From assembly GCA_018004935.1 (NCBI GenBank), contig JAGNBF010000004.1, positions 96,971 through 154,051 on the forward strand: 57,081 nucleotides of DNA, given 5' to 3'. A program made the translations under genes and the position numbers. Shown here in pieces: positions 7,079-57,081 of the stretch; within the stretch, counting starts at the first letter, position 1, and every line of letters begins with the position of its first letter. This DNA comes from Chloroflexota bacterium (GTDB lineage: Bacteria > Chloroflexota > Anaerolineae > Promineifilales > Promineifilaceae). Under the pieces are notes generated by a model. That model did no database searches and was not told where the DNA came from. It saw nothing but the letters and a program-made list of their open reading frames with translations.

Positions 7079-7449
7079 CTTAGGGTTCGTAAAAATATAA
7101 CTTCCCGGTTTAGACCTGACAGGTTTTCGGAAACCTGTCAGGTCTTGACGGAACTTAATCTTTTACAGGCCCTTAGCGGTTTTTAGATTGCGGCAGTCTT
7201 GAAGACTGCCGCAATCTAGCGAACTTATTCACGAACAATTACTAAGGGTTCGCTCGTAAACAACTTTGGAGTTTGCTGTGGCCGGTCTCCTGACCGCGCC
7301 ACCCAACTTAATTCCAAGTGAACCCTAAGTAGGTGTATCTTCTCAATAGCTTGGGATGCACGGGTTGGTCTCTTGACCATGACCGCTGGTGACTCGGTCA
7401 GGAGACCGGCCACAGCAAAACCCTAAGTTAAAAACGAACGATTACTTAT
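7079..7449. repeat. Intergenic repeat block: family B, 16-bp dyad, two inverted family C copies
   Basis: This gene-free stretch is built of repeats. 7079-7176 is the long form of family B, with outer sequence TAGGGTTCGTAAAAATATAA and hairpin at 7113. At 7185-7217 two 16-bp arms (AGATTGCGGCAGTCTT and complement) flank a single G. Family C copies lie at 7255-7331 and 7388-7449 in opposite orientation; their shared core is CCGGTCTCCTGACC. A Y-shaped RNA or cruciform could form from the C pair. Confidence 0.8.
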
Positions 7450-13957: not shown

Positions 13958-14014
13958 GTAGGACGATTTACAAAATCGTCCACTGGGCGATTTGCCAAAT
14001 CGCCCTACATTTTC
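13958..14014. repeat. Family E double hairpin
   Basis: Two adjacent hairpins, GGACGATTT/AAATCGTCC and GGGCGATTT/AAATCGCCC, are flanked by TGTAGG and CCTACA. The right end runs into TTTTCGTAGGAG, so the ribosome site of the following secreted-protein gene is formed at the edge of the element. Related E sequences lie upstream of several genes at 28.3, 30.3, 32.6, 38.2 and 44.7 kb. Confidence 0.75.
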
Positions 14015-17892: not shown

Positions 17893-18608
17893 TCAGGGTT
17901 CGTAAAAATATAACTTCCCGCTTTAGACCTGACAGGTTTCCGAAAACCTGTCAGGTCTTGACGGAACTTAATCTTTTACAGGCCATCACAAGTTCATAGG
18001 ACTTGGGAATTTCGAGGGGTACGGGCAACCCTTGTGGTTGCCCCACACTGGGCAGGCACAAGGCCAGCCCCCTACAGTAGGTACTCGTTCTACGCTCTGC
18101 GTGGAACGCTCCCTACGACGCTCTGCGTCGCGTATCACAGATAAGGGTAGAGACGCAAAATTTTGCGTCTCTACGTCTTTGGGGCATGTAAGACCTGGCG
18201 CGACTGAGAACGCACAGCCTGGAAAGGCTGTGCTACATCCACCAACAGCGGCTTTTTTTGATAGTGCCGCCTTTAGGGTCTGTAAAAGATTAAGTTCTGT
18301 CAAGACCTGACAGGTTTTCGGAAACCTGTCAGGTCTAAACCGGGAAGTTATATTTTTACGAACCCTTAGGGCCTGAGCAATCGTCCGAAAATAATCTGGG
18401 TGGCCCGGTCACAGCAAATCGCTAAATTAATTGCCAGCAATTCTCAGTTTGAACGATAACCGTTCCGTTAATACGCCCGGCGGTCAAACCGCCGGGCTAA
18501 AAATTAAGACAGCAGGCCAACGGCCTTCGTGACCATAGCCCGGCCCGTTTTACGGCCGGACGGTCTCGACATTTTTAGATGTTCAGGCAAATGGAGAATG
18601 GCTGAAAG
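17893..18608. repeat. Gene-free repeat block bounded by inverted family B copies
   Basis: Family B long copies at about 17893-17985 and 18276-18368 face each other (CAGGGTTCGTAAAAATATAA on the left, its complement on the right), enclosing about 290 bp. The interior has a partial family A copy (17999-18075) and CTCTGCGT-rich short repeats (18085-18135). Beyond lie a degenerate family C copy (about 18390-18425) and a hairpin at 18475-18497 (GCCCGGCGG / CCGCCGGGC). I see no gene. The facing B copies give the stretch the look of a composite non-autonomous element. Confidence 0.75.
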
Positions 18609-20782: not shown

Positions 20783-21540
20783 AACCTGGGTAGCGCGGTC
20801 AGGAGACCGGCCACAGCAAACTCAAAAGTTATTTGCAAGCGAACCCTAAGTACAGCGTAAACAAAATATTGACTCTTTAGGAATTCCGGGGGGGGTGACA
20901 CCAGATACACGGGTTGGACTTGCACCTGCCAGTGTGGGGCAACCACAAGGGTTGCCCGTACCCCGCGAAATCTTCCAGAACCAAAATTTTTTTGTAAGGA
21001 TACTGCCCCTCACCCCCGGCCCCTCTTCCATTTCGGGAAAGGGGAGTTGGTTCCCTCTCCCTGGGGAGAGGGTTAGAATGAGGGACTGAATAGTTATACT
21101 TACCACGGTCATAAAATGCCATTTTGTTGGCGGCAACTGCTGAGTAAGCCTGGGCAGAAGACCCATCCCCCTACCCCTTCCCAAAGGGACGGGGGGAAAC
21201 CAATGGTGCGGTTTGGTGGGCGGACGCCCGCCAAACCGCACCAGAAATAGTTCCCCGCCCCTGGGGGCGGGGTTAGGGGTGGGGGCCGCCTCGGACAAAC
21301 CGATCATGAGACCGAGCACAAAAACATGGCCCCATTCCCCTCATGATGATCAAGGGTGTGGCGATTATTAAATGACCTGAACCACTTGAGTTGAGAGTTC
21401 AGAGCCAGAGCCAGAGCCAGAGCTAGAGCTAGAGCGGGAGCTAGAGCGGGAGCTAGAGCTAGAGGGTTTTCCAGAGTAATTTCCTCTCGCTCTCTCCTCT
21501 CGCTCTAAACTCCAGGAACCACCACTCTCTGGGAAAATGT
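20783..21540. repeat. Repeat block: families C, A, D, and an AGAGCY minisatellite (F)
   Basis: The whole interval between the two kinases is repeats. Family C is at 20783-20853, a reversed family A at 20872-20982, a G/C-rich stretch at 21004-21070, and family D at 21150-21290 with stem-loop 21205-21242 (GGTGCGGTTTGGTGGGCGGA then its complement). A minisatellite at about 21405-21466 repeats AGAGCC, AGAGCT and AGCGGG units. The related, non-expanded copy of its frame (family F) is at 44583-44665 in opposite orientation. No gene or clear promoter is visible in about 870 bp. Confidence 0.8.
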
Positions 21541-21605
21541 CAGATTATGCCCTTTGGCAGTATAGAAACCAAAAAGGGGTTGTATACCAATAATCGAGGG
21601 ATTTT

Positions 21606-27490: not shown

Positions 27491-28545
27491 GGAACCTCAC
27501 CGAATAATTGATCGTTGTTAGCAAGTTGTCGGAGGGCAAATGCTTACTGTATGTCAAAGCAATACAACACCAGGAAAGTTGGTTCTTTGGGAATTCAGGG
27601 GGTTGACACCATATGTACAGGCTGGCCTTGTGCCTGTCCCGTGTGGGGCAACCACAAGGGTTGCCCGTACCCCACAAAATCCCCAAAGAACTTATTGGCT
27701 CTTTCGGAATTCGTGGGGTGCGGCTAGATGTAGGGGCTGGCCTTGTGCCTGCCCCGCCGAGGGCAACCACAAGGGTTGCCCCTACAGATGGTGTCAACCC
27801 CCTGAAATCCCAAAGACCCAACTTATTTTCTTCCTCTCAACCGAAATGAAACACACCCCTTAGCAATTTGCTATGGCCGGTCTCCTGACCGCGCCACCCA
27901 GGTTAGTTTTGGACGATTACTAAGCCGTTGCCTGAGCTTGTCGAAGGCAACACGAGGCTTCGACAAGCTCAGCCCTCGAGAGCATTAGGAGTTACCCTAA
28001 ACTTATACAGGCCATATGCTTTATTGAAGTAGCGTTTGCTAAGGGCACCAAAACAGGTTTTGCCCCAATAGATTAGGTTAAGGAGAGAATTTTGACCAGT
28101 GACAAATGTAATGAAAACGAAACAATTCACTGGATGGGTGGCAATAATTCGGTGGGGGATGATGTGGGGGTAAGCGTTCAGTTATCCCGCCCCCAGGGGC
28201 GGGGAGTTTTTTAAGGCGGGCAAAATCGGGGGTAAAACCCCCGATTTTGCCCGCCGAGTGGGTTCCCCTGGTTAATCATTCAACAATTCACGAATTCACC
28301 CTTTACCAAATCGCCCTACAAATTTTCATTCCATTTAGTGAGCGCCCGCTCATGGGGAACTTGGTGCGGCCGCAGGCCCATGGGGAACTCCTACGATTTC
28401 CGGCGGGAAGGGGGAAACACCAAAAGTGCCGGTTATCGAGCGCGGCCGCGCTCGATAACCGGCACAGGAGAAAGTTCCCCGCCCTGGGGGGCGGGGTTAG
28501 GGGTGGGGGAAACCCTATTACCTGACTAAAAGGGCAAAGCCGTGT
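27491..28545. repeat. 1-kb gene-free mosaic of families A, C, G, E and D
   Basis: Two family A copies lie head to tail (27581-27690 and 27697-27820). Family C follows at 27861-27926 and G at 27930-27990. 28150-28262 is a family D copy with a perfect 18-bp stem (28215-28255; GGCGGGCAAAATCGGGGG arm). 28262-28345 has E-type AATCGCCCTACAAATTTTCA sequence. 28400-28530 is another D copy whose 40-bp stem-loop (28426-28465) is a perfect palindrome with GCGGCCGC exactly at its centre. No gene is seen. 27991-28150 looks unique but has no convincing frame. Confidence 0.8.
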
Positions 28546-29025: not shown

Positions 29026-29600
29026 GATAGATTCCTCCAGGGCGGTCATTGGTGTAGTGGGCTGGGGGTTATTGATAGAAAGCATTATTTTTAAGCCTCC
29101 GGTTATTCGATGGCTGGTCTAACTGACTGAAACATAATCCCATCATTAGACACATACACCAATAAACCAATAATTTCTGCTTGAGTTTCAGGGTTTCGCG
29201 GGCAACGATAGACCTCAAGATAATAATTTTGGGTAAGGGCTGGCCTTGTGCCCGCCCCGTCAAGGGCAATCACAGGGTTGCCCCTACAGCCAAAATCTTT
29301 TGGTTGTAACGACTAACTCCCTCAAGGGTTGAACTTGTCGAAGCCCGTTTGCCTTCCACAAACTCAGCCCTCGGGAGTTTTAGGGTTCGCTCAAAATTAA
29401 GTCAGGTGGCGCGGTCAGGAGACCGGGCACAGCAAACTCAAAAGTTATTTGCGGGCGAACCCTTAGTAATCGTCCAAGAATAAGTTCCGCGCAGACCTGA
29501 CAGGTTTCCGAAAACCTGTCAGGTCTAAACCGGGAAGTTATTTTTAGATGTTCACTTAGTCGTTACTTTTGGTGCCATAATTTCCCAAGACCCTTCTGCT
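29026..29600. repeat. Gene-free repeats: families A, G, C and B
   Basis: A partial family A (29226-29298), a G copy (about 29325-29380), a C copy (29382-29475, GTGGCGCGGTCAGGAGACCG core) and a B copy (29463-29560, hairpin at 29494) run into each other. C and B share the joining sequence CCCTTAGTAATCGTCC, which recurs at 44480-44500, so C and B have been copied there as one unit. No gene is seen. Confidence 0.75.
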
Positions 29601-30327: not shown

Positions 30328-30700
30328 ACTCCTACAAAAATGTAGGGCGATTTGGTAAAGGGTGTATTTCATTTCAGTTGAGAGGAAGAAAATAATGAAT
30401 CGGTGAATTTGTGAATTGTTGAATGATTAACGGGGAAGGCGTCTACCGCTTCATTAACCATTCAATAATTCAACTGTTCAACAATTAATTATTCAACTCA
30501 TTTGAAGCGCACCCTTTGGTAAATCGCCCAGTGGACGATTTAAAAAATCGTCCTACAGATTTTCATCCCTCTTGGTGCGCCGTAGGCCCATGGGGAACTC
30601 CTACGAAAATAAATTTGCGTGTTTGCGAGTAACAAGTAAGAACACCCACTCGCCCACTCGCCTACTCGCCTACTCGCCACTCGCCACTCGCTGTTTTCCT
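30328..30700. repeat. Duplicated intergenic block, copy 1
   Basis: This 370-bp stretch recurs, diverged, at 32570-32920. In order both carry CTCCT..GTAGGGCGATTT, then GTTGAGAGGAAGAAAATAAT, tandem GAATCGGTGAAT-type units, CGTCTACCGCTTCATTAAC, then CAATTAATTATTCAACTCA. The distal end in both has CATGGGGAACTCCT and an ACTCGCC-rich minisatellite (30645-30690). Each copy sits directly upstream of a gene of the MglA/Roadblock cluster and supplies its AGGAG ribosome site. Confidence 0.8.
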
Positions 30701-34029: not shown

Positions 34030-34423
34030 ATTGGTGAGGATGGGGTTAGGGATGGTTAGGAAAGGTTGGGCGATTCGCGGCCGCAAACCCATTCTCCTAC
34101 AATCCCCGGCAGGACGAAAAAACCCAACGGCGCGATTTGGGGGGCGAGGGAAAAATACCATAAGTGCCGGTTTTCCAGCGCACCGACGCGCTCGAAAACC
34201 GGCACTAAAAAAAATCCCCGCCCCTGGGGGCGAGGAACAATTTACGGCTCGGTTTGGCGAACAGACGCCCACCAAACCGAGCCGTTGAGTTTCTCCCCTT
34301 CCCTCTGGAAAAGGGACGAGGGAAGGGTCTTCCGTCCAGGCTTACCCAATCTGTTGCCGCCAACAAAATGTCACTTTATGACCGTGGTAAGTATAATTCT
34401 CCTTCCTTATCTCCATTCAACTC
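34030..34423. repeat. Two family D units and flanks
   Basis: 34164-34205 is a stem-loop with arms GTGCCGGTTTTC / GAAAACCGGCAC, followed by CCCCGCCCCTGGGGGCGAGG. A second stem-loop at 34246-34283 (GGCTCGGTTTGG arms) leads into TCTCCCCTTCCCTCTGG. The stretch 34335-34400 (CTTACCCAATCTGTTGCCGC onward) has near relatives, reversed, at 21100-21150. A GCGGCCGC lies at 34077. No gene is seen. Confidence 0.75.
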
Positions 34424-38213: not shown

Positions 38214-38486
38214 CATTCAGGGGCGTGGTTAAAAAGTCGGCAAACGATACTTACCATTTTGTAGGGCGATTTTATTGTTCATTAAATTTTTAATCGGGTA
38301 ACGCATTCATTGACCCCATCCCCTGGGGCATTTTTCGGGGCGAATGCCCCGAAAAATGCCCCTTAGAAAAGTTCCCCGCCCCTGGGGGCGGGGTTAGAGG
38401 TGGGGGGGGATTCCATTACCTGATTAATTTTTTAAACGACAATAAAATCGCCCTACAAATCTGTAAAGCTGACCTGAACCATGCCC
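38214..38486. mobile_element. Family D element inserted in a family E repeat
   Basis: The outer parts (GGCGTGGTT..AAAGTCGGCAA and GTAAAGCTGACCTGAACCAT) match the uninterrupted E copy at 44686-44800. Between them, 38277-38440 is a D element. Its ends are imperfect inverted repeats (GTTCATTAAATTTTTAATCG and the complement of ATTACCTGATTAATTTTTTA). Inside is the stem-loop 38325-38362 (GGGGCATTTTTC arms) followed by CCCCGCCCCTGGGGGCGGGG. This is a filled site against an empty site in the same genome. It carries no open frame and lies between the LysR gene and its presumed operators. Confidence 0.75.
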
Positions 38487-44049: not shown

Positions 44050-44930
44050 TAAATAATCGTTCGGAAATAAGATAGGTGGCTCGGTCAGGAGACCGGCCAC
44101 AGCAAACTGCTAAGTTAAAAACGAACGATTACTAAGGATTAACGATTAAATAACGGGTCTTGGGGAATTCAGGGAGTTGACCCTATATGTATAGGGTGAT
44201 TCGTTTCAGCCAATAGGGCAACTCATCCCCATTCTGCCCTAAAGGAGCTATAGACCTTATGGGGTAATACCCTACCATGTGGTGTGGAAAGGCTGTATTT
44301 TTAGGGGCTGTATAGTCACAAGCGGTAAACAAAACTGCGATGTTTTCGGGAAAAGGGTATACTTGGTTTCATTGTCACGCTGGTGCCTCAGACGTGTTAG
44401 CTTAGTAATCGTTCGTTTTTAACTTAGCAGTTTGCTGTGGCCGGTCTCCTGACCGTGCACTCAACTTAATTTTGAGCGCACCCTTAGTAATCGTCCAAAA
44501 ATAAGTTCCGCACAGACCTGACAGGTTTTCGGAAACCTGTCAGGTCTAAATCGGGAAGTTATTTTTAGATGTTCACTTAGTACTGGAGTTTAGAGCGAGA
44601 GGGGAGAGCGAGAGGAAATTACTCGGGAAAACCCTCTAGCTTTGGCTCTGAACTCTAAACTCAAGTTAGTAATTACGGCGTGGTTCAAAAGTCGGCAACC
44701 GGTGCTTAACACTTTGTAGGGCGATTTGGTAAATCGCCCACGAGACGATTTACCAAATCGTCCTACAAATTTGTAAAGCTGACCTGAACCATGCCGTAAT
44801 TACCATAAACTTATCGGGTCTTCGGGATTTCGTAGGGTACGGGCAACCCTCGTGGTTGCCCCGTGTGGGGCAACCACAAGGCCAGCCCGTACATATAGGG
44901 TCAACCCCGTGAATTCCCAAGAGTCAACTT
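44050..44930. repeat. 0.9-kb gene-free mosaic of families C, A, B, F and E
   Basis: In order: C (44050-44137), partial A (44156-44200), a unique part (44200-44400) with an 18-nt GGGTAATACCCTACCATG motif and no frame, C (44404-44495), B (44480-44580, hairpin at 44515), F (44583-44665), E uninterrupted (44686-44800, double hairpin 44716-44766), and A (44816-44930). The last A copy abuts the start of the antirepressor-like gene. No gene or T-run terminator is visible. Confidence 0.8.
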
Positions 44931-45782: not shown

Positions 45783-46085
45783 TTTTGTTCATTAAATTTT
45801 TAATCGGGTAACGCATTCATTGACCCCATCCCCCCTGCCCATTCCCGAGGGAAGGGGGGAATTCCAATGGGGCATTTTCCGGGGCGAATGCCCCGGAAAA
45901 TGCCCCTTAGAAAAGTTCCCCGCCCCCGGGGCAGGGTTAGGGGTGGGGGAAACCCTATTACCTGACTGTTTTTTAAACCAACAAAGGGGGAGAAACCCAA
46001 CGGCGCGGTTTGGCGGGCGTCTGCCCGCCAAACCGCGCCAGAAAAAATTCCCCGCCCCCGGGGCGGGGTTAGGGGTGAGGGTATG
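45783..46085. repeat. Two family D elements in tandem
   Basis: The first starts GTTCATTAAATTTTTAATCG, has stem-loop 45869-45906 (GGGGCATTTTCC arms) and GC-rich box 45916-45950, and ends ATTACCTGACTGTTTTTTAA. The second has stem-loop 46002-46039 (GGCGCGGTTTGGC arms) and the same GC box at 46050-46080. The left 40 bp are identical to the left end of the D element at 38277, though the flanking sequences differ. Confidence 0.8.
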
Positions 46086-48497: not shown

Positions 48498-48837
48498 AAT
48501 GTGGGCACAACCCCAGCCCGGCAAACAAGAAAACACACACCAATCTGGGCCGTTTTTCGTGGGCGTTTGCCCACGAAAAACGGCCCCTAAACAATTCCCC
48601 GCCCCTGGGGGCGGGGTTAGGGGTGGGGGAACACCCAAATATACAAAAATCAATTGGGGCCGTTTTTTACCATTCAGAATGTGGGCACAACCCCAGCCCA
48701 GCAAACAAGAAAACACACACCAATCTGGGCCGTTTTTCGTGGGCGTTTGCCCACGAAAAACGGCCCCTAAACAATTCCCCGCCCCTGGGGGCGGGGTTAG
48801 GGGTGGGGGAACACCCAAATATATAATCACCCTGATA
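48498..48837. repeat. Tandem duplication of a family D unit, period 180 bp
   Basis: Two copies of about 160 bp, almost identical, begin GAATGTGGGCACAACCCCAG at 48497 and 48677. Each has a 40-nt stem-loop (48547-48586, 48727-48766; arms GGGCCGTTTTTCGTGGGC) and then CCCCGCCCCTGGGGGCGGGG. The near identity points to a recent event. It lies between the DDAH-like stop and the SulP promoter. Confidence 0.9.
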
Positions 48838-51677: not shown

Positions 51678-52107
51678 TCGTTACGACTAAGGAACGAGAA
51701 TTAAATAAGTTACAGGGGTCTGAAGACGAGCACCTCATGACAAAAGTCAGACTGACGATTTGATGACAACTGTCACCCTCGGTTTGTCGCCGAACCCCCC
51801 ACCCCTAACCCCGCCCCAGGGCGGGGAACTTTTCTAGGCGCGGTTTTTCGGGGCCTTCGTCCCGAAAAACCGCGCCCGGGTCCCCCCCTTCCCTCTGGAA
51901 TCGTAGGGGGATGGGTCTGCCAACGAAATCTACGCAGGGTTTAGGGTTCGCTCAAAATTAAGTTGGGTGGCACGGTCAGGAGACCGGCCACAGCAAATGT
52001 TCAAGTTATTTAATCTTAATATCTATCTTGGTGGTGTACGGCTCCGCCTGAGCTTGTCGAAGGCAGAGCCGGGCTTCGACATACTCAGCCCTCGAAAAGG
52101 TGTATCG
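51678..52107. repeat. Gene-free stretch: TGAC dyads, families D, C, G
   Basis: Two dyads of the form TGAC-N4-GTCA lie at 51738-51749 and 51764-51775, 26 bp apart. A reversed D element follows (51798-51911; stem-loop 51837-51876, arms GGCGCGGTTTTTCGGG). Then come C (51942-52012) and a degenerate G (52045-52100, TGAGCTTGTCGAAGGC core). The HemW-like gene ends at 52108 from the other strand. No gene is seen. Confidence 0.75.
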
Positions 52108-56864: not shown

Positions 56865-57081
56865 TGTGTTTCAAAGGAGTTGAATAATTAATTGTTGAAC
56901 TGTTGAACTGTTCATGAAGCGGTAGACGCTCTAGGGTGATTGCCTACGTGGAGTTCCCACACCCCCAACCCCACCCCCCGGGGGCGGGGAGCTTTTCTAA
57001 GGGGCATTTTTCCGGGGCGAATGCCCCAAAAAATGCCCCATTGGAATTCCCCCCCTTCCCAAGGGAATCGGCAGGGGGGGT
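56865..57081. repeat. Family E/D repeats upstream of the radical SAM operon
   Basis: 56865-56940 is a reversed part of the duplicated block at 30.3/32.6 kb (TTGAATAATTAATTGTTGAA, GAAGCGGTAGACG). 56958-57081 is a reversed family D copy with stem-loop 57001-57039 (GGGGCATTTTT arms), cut by the window end. An operon promoter and any upstream precursor gene would lie here or beyond; none is seen. Confidence 0.75.

Follow-up and report, generated by a model that had tools for sequence, protein, structure and literature searches.

Stem pairing in a dispersed bacterial hairpin family probably reflects template switching in MITE-like carriers

The draft genome of a Chloroflexota bacterium (GCA_018004935.1) contains a short intergenic hairpin repeat, here called family D, that keeps the pairing of its stem rather than the sequence. 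This pairing is probably a result of how the hairpin mutates, by template switching within the MITE-like elements that carry it, and not of selection. The reading is supported by an excess of paired changes, a stem rate similar to that of the flanks, loop orientations close to 50:50 in more than one hairpin family, loops that flip in place, a dependence on loop size, and the MITE termini found around the module. Covariation between stem arms is normally taken to prove that an RNA or DNA structure is under selection. The many natural, dispersed copies of family D combine strong covariation with no sign of selection and with loops in nearly equal orientations.

Layout and copy number of family D

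The family D module has three hairpins, with a left and a right G/C box on either side of a central hairpin that is variable. The right box is TTCCCCGCCCCTGGGGGCGGGGTTAGGGGTGGGGG or a sequence near it, and the variable hairpin lies 7-9 nt upstream. Further upstream there is usually a left box (CCCCTTCCC..GGGAAGGGGGGAA type). With a 30-base frame box and at most three mismatches, 512 copies are detected in the 7.98-Mb draft (229 contigs), 253 on one strand and 259 on the other, while the reversed pattern gives no match genome-wide. None of 58 relatives, taken from the bacterium's own family, order and class, carries the box at up to three mismatches. A longer box, required to match exactly, does not occur among the matches listed in a scan with one genome per species, the bacterium's own being left out, and the exact box is likewise absent from viral contigs. 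By PolA, the nearest named genomes are Chloroflexota/Anaerolineae MAGs.

Hairpin statistics were drawn from 2.60 Mb, about one third of the genome. This sequence has 249 boxes, 207 of which have a recognisable hairpin (pairing score of at least 12) directly 5' of them, at the expected place. Among the 207, 160 are perfect, 39 have one mismatch and 8 have two; the share of perfect stems is, if anything, overestimated, since the score partly excludes multi-mismatch hairpins, and about 10 of the 42 rejected boxes have a hairpin that can be recognised despite several mismatches or indels. There are 133 distinct stems, mostly of 15-21 bp with loops mostly of 2-4 nt, and related stem classes include GGGGCATTTTTCGGGGC, CGGCGCGGTTTGGCGAGCG, GGCGCGGTTTTTCGGGGC, GAGCCGTTTTTCGCGGGC, GTGTCATTTTTCGCGGGC and GTGCCGGTTATCGAGCGCG. 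At some boxes one arm has been lost, apparently through slippage from one short direct repeat (for example AAACC) to another. Arm loss of this kind is also expected at hairpins that block replication.

Copies in the window

The window is the stretch of 57,081 nucleotides that was analysed (contig JAGNBF010000004.1, positions 96,971 to 154,051). All of the at least eleven copies listed in a sequence-only reading of the window are found. The same reading described every stem as fully paired, which applies to most of them; the hairpins at 34246 and 57001 are imperfect and those at 21204 and 34163 have one mismatch each.

The hairpin TGGTGCGGTTTGGTGGGCG (21204..21243, plus strand, loop GA) is followed by the right box TTCCCCGCCCCTGGGGGCGGGGTTAGGGGTGGGGG at 21251..21285 (plus). 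Both lie in a type-3 MITE-like element (see below) at 21098..21561 on the plus strand, which is TA-flanked; both of its ends, ACTTACCACGGTC ... GACAGT, are found, with flanks AT/AT. On the minus strand, a divergent right box with 7 substitutions from the consensus (28177..28206) accompanies GGCGGGCAAAATCGGGGGT, a perfect 19-bp stem with a 3-nt loop (28215..28255). It is followed on the plus strand by the perfect hairpin GTGCCGGTTATCGAGCGCG (28426..28465) and its right box (28475..28509). The hairpins AGTGCCGGTTTTC... (34163..34206, plus) and GGCTCGGTTTGG... (34246..34283, minus), the inner part of the latter now being unpaired, have a common right box at 34214..34236 (plus).

Four perfect hairpins follow on the plus strand, each with its right box: GGGGCATTTTTCGGGGC (38325..38362, loop GAAT; box 38372..38406), GGGGCATTTTCCGGGGC (45869..45906, loop GAAT; box 45916..45949), GGCGCGGTTTGGCGGGC (46002..46039, loop GTCT; box 46048..46080) and GGGCCGTTTTTCGTGGGC (48547..48586, loop GTTT; box 48595..48629). 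The first of these is enclosed by a type-2 element, TTGTTC ... CGACAA (38274..38441, plus), which itself lies between the 17-bp arms TGTAGGGCGATTTTA and TAAAATCGCCCTACA of another hairpin repeat. The last is repeated in tandem by a 180-bp duplication, whose second copy has its hairpin at 48727..48766 and its right box at 48775..48809, both on the plus strand. The remaining copies are on the minus strand: a right box at 51801..51828 with the perfect 16-bp stem GGCGCGGTTTTTCGGG (51837..51876), and the hairpin GGGGCATTTTT... with an interrupted stem (57001..57039).

When folded as DNA, the 11 window hairpins (all except the tandem duplicate at 48727) are equalled by none of 200 shuffles, with z between -4.3 and -8.8. 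The window also contains a paired T-A to C-G change, seen when GGGGCATTTTTCGGGGC at 38325 is compared with GGGGCATTTTCCGGGGC at 45869, in which both arms are altered.

Paired changes in the stems

When the hairpins are aligned by their midpoints, Watson-Crick pairs make up 96.4% of the stem cells, versus 64% (maximum 66.6%) when the 3' letters are shuffled, which is far more than chance would give. This value, the diversity of the stems and the paired changes agree with the earlier proposal that it is pairing, not sequence, which is kept.

Events were read from paralogous copies within one draft assembly. A minimum spanning tree was built on the flanks only, and links of at most 5% divergence were kept, which gave 52 edges. 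In this tree both arms have changed at 11 stem pairs, and 11 out of 11 are complementary, whereas 0.5 would be expected under independent arms. The excess over independent mutation is about 20-fold (Poisson p about 1e-11); single-arm changes are undercounted here because the pairing-score cut-off drops multi-mismatch hairpins, and gene conversion among copies could spread paired variants. Symmetric flank positions, taken as a control, show 0 double and 48 single changes. The change per site is 2.65% in the stems and 2.07% in the flanks. Since the stem rate is about that of the flanks, pairing is not maintained by purifying selection. The double changes also exceed the mutation supply, and an excess of this kind can come from a copying process but not from selection. 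The sequence-only reading had left the choice between selection and a copy mechanism; the copy mechanism is now favoured, and selection as the main cause is not, given the similar rates of change in stems and flanks.

Loop inversion

Scored by the orientation of the frame, the short loops of family D occur both ways in similar numbers: ATTC 29 and GAAT 27, GA 22 and TC 17, AGAC 12 and GTCT 10, CTTC 8 and GAAG 8. Pooled, the two orientations stand at 71 to 62, and the binomial p is 0.5-1 for the loop classes. Four 183-bp elements (loci L078, L095, L100 and L109) are identical but for the loop, which is TTC in two and GAA in two, and each has its own, different 10-bp target duplication. One loop is also flipped in each of two tandem arrays (L050 7186/7370/7554 and L095 7305/7433/7560). 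The L095 array also has an outer C-A mismatch whose orientation is unchanged where the loop flips, indicating that the breakpoints of the exchange are inside the stem. On the flank tree, the loop has flipped on 4 of the 6 edges at 0.5% flank divergence.

A second, unrelated hairpin family, AGACCTGACAGGTTT, has 78 matches in three different frames, with loops in both orientations. The ratios are 15:9 and 6:12 for TCGG/CCGA and 7:4 for TAG/CTA. In the window, hairpins of this family with TCGG or CCGA loops are at 7112-7145, 17925-17958, 18303-18336, 29493-29526 and 44514-44547. AT-rich hairpin families with 9-nt loops show no flipping. Over all families, with inversions in those other than D counted by flank orientation, loops of 2-4 nt are inverted in 28 cases and the same in 68, and loops of at least 5 nt in 0 and 29, respectively (Fisher p 3e-4).

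This genome has about 3.5 times the density of perfect hairpins (arms of 14 bp or more) that is seen in 80 loci of other genomes chosen via PolA (15.8 versus 4.5 per 100 kb). A hairpin repeat with a non-flipping 9-nt loop, TGTAGGGCGATTTGGTAAATCG, is found in the window at 44706-44776, 30515-30562 and 13967-14014, and an arm related to it, GTGTAGGGCGATTT, is present in a relative (L171).

Carrier elements

The D module is carried by small non-autonomous MITE-like elements that have been amplified in this lineage. They have the terminal inverted repeats and target-site duplication by which MITEs are recognised, and the termini around the module are of at least three kinds. Type 1 is 183 bp long, with the terminal inverted repeat YAGGGCGATTGCATAYTC and 10-bp target duplications; a duplication of at least 10 bp is seen for 15 of 35 terminal repeat pairs (control, 1 of 2000). 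Type-1 termini also occur in 13 of the 58 relatives, without a D box at up to three mismatches, which implies that this type of MITE predates the module. Pairs of these termini at constant spacing were noted in two relatives, at 184 bp in G022 (for example C95:15980-16163) and at 130 bp in G013 (for example C1:4892-5021).

Type-2 elements (TTGTTC...CGACAA, about 200 bp) are situated inside the loops of other hairpins, whose sequences are unrelated, and a perfect inverted repeat of 7 bp or more flanks 19 of 31 (control, 2 of 3000). Further sites are at L139:18236, L049:15097 and L125:10549, and the insertion pattern is structure-directed. Type 3 is TA-flanked with the ends ACTTACC...GACAGT, and the flanks are AT/AT in 27 of 30 cases. 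Insertion of type 2 into hairpin loops is a possible route by which one module entered three sets of termini.

Transposase and SbcCD searches

A transposase acting on hairpins, of the IS200/IS605 or TnpA-REP type, had been suggested from the sequence alone. This is not borne out: no RAYT or IS200/IS605 system is found in the genome (96.6% complete), and the termini with their target duplications resemble those of DDE transposons. The sole Y1_Tnp match in the genome, of 31 bits, is degenerate, with HVQ where HUH is expected, and falls within a 388-aa protein. This protein is encoded at L104:2561-3727, upstream of polA, and on visual inspection its N-terminal region resembles a receiver domain. 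The two DDE families searched, DDE_Tnp_1 (PF01609) and DDE_Tnp_1_assoc (PF13808), have no match in the genome, and the Y1_Tnp, PF01609 and PF13808 searches link no transposase to type 1, 2 or 3 termini.

SbcD (TIGR00619) is not found in this genome, though it is found in 33 of the 39 genomes searched. SbcC is present (C49:31672-34635), and no metallophosphatase domain is detected in the readable part of its contig, which excludes the contig end near SbcC. Another genome, G005, is likewise without SbcD and with SbcC. Because of this genome and of the unread end of C49, the loss of SbcD is treated as a lead.

Mechanism and alternative explanations

The replication fork probably stalls at the hairpin, which has 17-19 bp and a short loop. 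The nascent strand would then switch template and copy one arm from the other, replication template switching being the presumed enzymatic route. Through arm copying, a mutation in one arm would either gain its complement in the other or be erased, and an intermolecular switch there and back would leave the loop inverted. Arm homogenisation, spacer inversion and a preference for short spacers have been described for template-switch mutation in inverted repeats (PMC8604942, PMC8794818). Family D has the corresponding quasipalindrome features, namely complementary changes in both arms, inversion of the spacer with the arms unchanged and dependence on a short spacer. The combination of the three is the published signature, hence our preference for replication template switching, which would explain why pairing is kept rather than sequence.

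Selection on an RNA structure (a terminator, a processing signal or a small RNA), with mismatches purged or compensated, would equally produce strong pairing, covariation and stable hairpins. It is nonetheless very improbable, as the stem rate is not lower than the flank rate and the loops invert freely. Nor is G-U, which an RNA under selection would tolerate on its transcribed strand, in excess. The stem mismatches comprise 24 G-T, 28 A-C and 3 transversions on the frame strand, without a bias of G-T over A-C, and 10 GT and 8 AC on the presumed transcribed strand, as assigned from neighbouring genes called as crude open reading frames. In addition, an Rfam search of the window gives no match, the stem sequence is not succeeded by a T-run, and gaps between convergent genes are not enriched in hairpins (33 of 163, against a background of 142 of 896). 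Selection could also act on the DNA hairpin during transposition, such that, as in REPINs, a copy must form a good hairpin to be mobilised. The copies are indeed mobile, as judged from their 10-bp duplications, and the authors of the REPIN work interpret compensatory changes as selection for hairpin-forming ability (PMC3116915). However, such selection only removes mutations and cannot give a roughly 20-fold excess of double changes at a flank-level stem rate. Loop inversion is not among its predictions, some copies have a hairpin that is deleted or broken, and no RAYT or IS200/IS605 transposase is found in the genome. We therefore consider it improbable, if less so than selection on RNA.

The speed of inversion, on 4 of 6 edges at so small a flank divergence, might be attributed to a dedicated enzyme (an invertase or a cruciform nuclease) that cuts and re-ligates the hairpin, flipping it and enforcing perfect arms. 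There is little to recommend this idea: the stems are too diverse for a site-specific recombinase, the L095 flip occurred inside the stem with the outer mismatch unmoved, and an unrelated hairpin family is affected as well. An assembly artefact, in which a wrong loop orientation or stem variant was chosen for this metagenome-assembled genome, is suggested by its 229 contigs, several of which end at or near a D copy, and by the poor assembly of near-identical repeats in general. Yet arms of 17-19 bp are shorter than the usual k-mers, so that orientation is resolvable; the balance is repeated across stem classes and in the second family but is absent from longer-loop families of the same assembly; and mis-joins cannot yield 133 distinct, complementary stems. 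An artefact thus seems most unlikely. The two outcomes named earlier as fatal to the idea, stems that are only fixed recurring variants or assembly artefacts, do not describe family D as judged from the assembly rather than from reads.

Template switching remains our preferred explanation, and it has a broader, more doubtful extension. If flips are fast, several hundred loci may be standing mixtures of the two orientations in the population, owing to unusually frequent template switching at hairpins (perhaps because the SbcD nuclease subunit was lost). The compensatory changes of REPINs and of other repeat families might likewise be a mutational by-product and not the outcome of selection on structure.

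Relation to known repeats

The sequence-only reading knew of no family described in this way. The REPINs of Pseudomonas fluorescens (REP doublets; Bertels and Rainey 2011, PMC3116915) nevertheless provide a precedent, since that report already describes conserved ends, a less conserved yet pairing spacer and common compensatory changes. Like REPINs, family D occurs as hundreds of short intergenic copies per genome, with left and right G/C boxes, inverted, around a variable paired stem. It differs from REPINs in that its boxes are not REP heads with a tyrosine transposase to match, and its copies lie within MITE-like elements with target duplications. As no RAYT is found, family D does not count as a REPIN if the term is taken strictly. 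Near-50:50 loop inversion, seen in family D, does not appear for REPINs in the portion of PMC3116915 that was consulted. What is new in family D is that loop inversion has reached saturation and that selection was put to the test, the kind itself being known through REPINs. Family D puts in question the selective reading of REPINs and similar hairpin repeats. It also offers a practical test of mutational versus functional covariation: loop inversion, equal GT and AC mismatches, and a stem rate equal to the flank rate.

Known template switches are scattered single loci, such as 10 spacer inversions in yeast genes and cases in rRNA and microRNA genes (PMC8604942, PMC8794818), whereas family D is one dispersed family with its loop orientation near equilibrium. 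It appears to behave as a group of quasipalindromes that often undergo template switching and have MITEs as their carriers. The carriers are similar to other bacterial MITEs in being short, intergenic and without coding capacity, with terminal inverted repeats and a 10-bp or TA duplication, but differ in that the same internal triple-hairpin module is found in three unrelated sets of termini. They do not match IS200/IS605 elements, which make no target duplication and have subterminal hairpins read by TnpA: type 1 duplicates 10 bp, and an intact TnpA domain was not found. Type-2 elements resemble IS1397, ISKpn1 and ISPpu9, which target REP palindromes (PMC1525189), in inserting into palindromic repeats; unlike these, they are non-autonomous and enter hairpins of many differing sequences.

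Palindromic repeats of organelles are, like family D, dispersed hairpin elements that are often nested. The short palindromic repeats of Volvox have the loop TAAA or its complement TTTA (PMC2670323), and the RHE of sponge mitochondria show complementary substitutions between stem types in Vaceletia (PMC2800124). These repeats differ from family D in being organellar and of other sequences, and their loop orientation is not treated as inversion in the portions of the two reports that were consulted. A D-box-like stretch, CCCCCCGCCCCTGGCGGGCGGGGATTAGGGGGGTGGGGG, is present in a Trichlorobacter MAG (L235:7270-7320), which suggests that intergenic repeats with this G/C box motif are a type of wider distribution.
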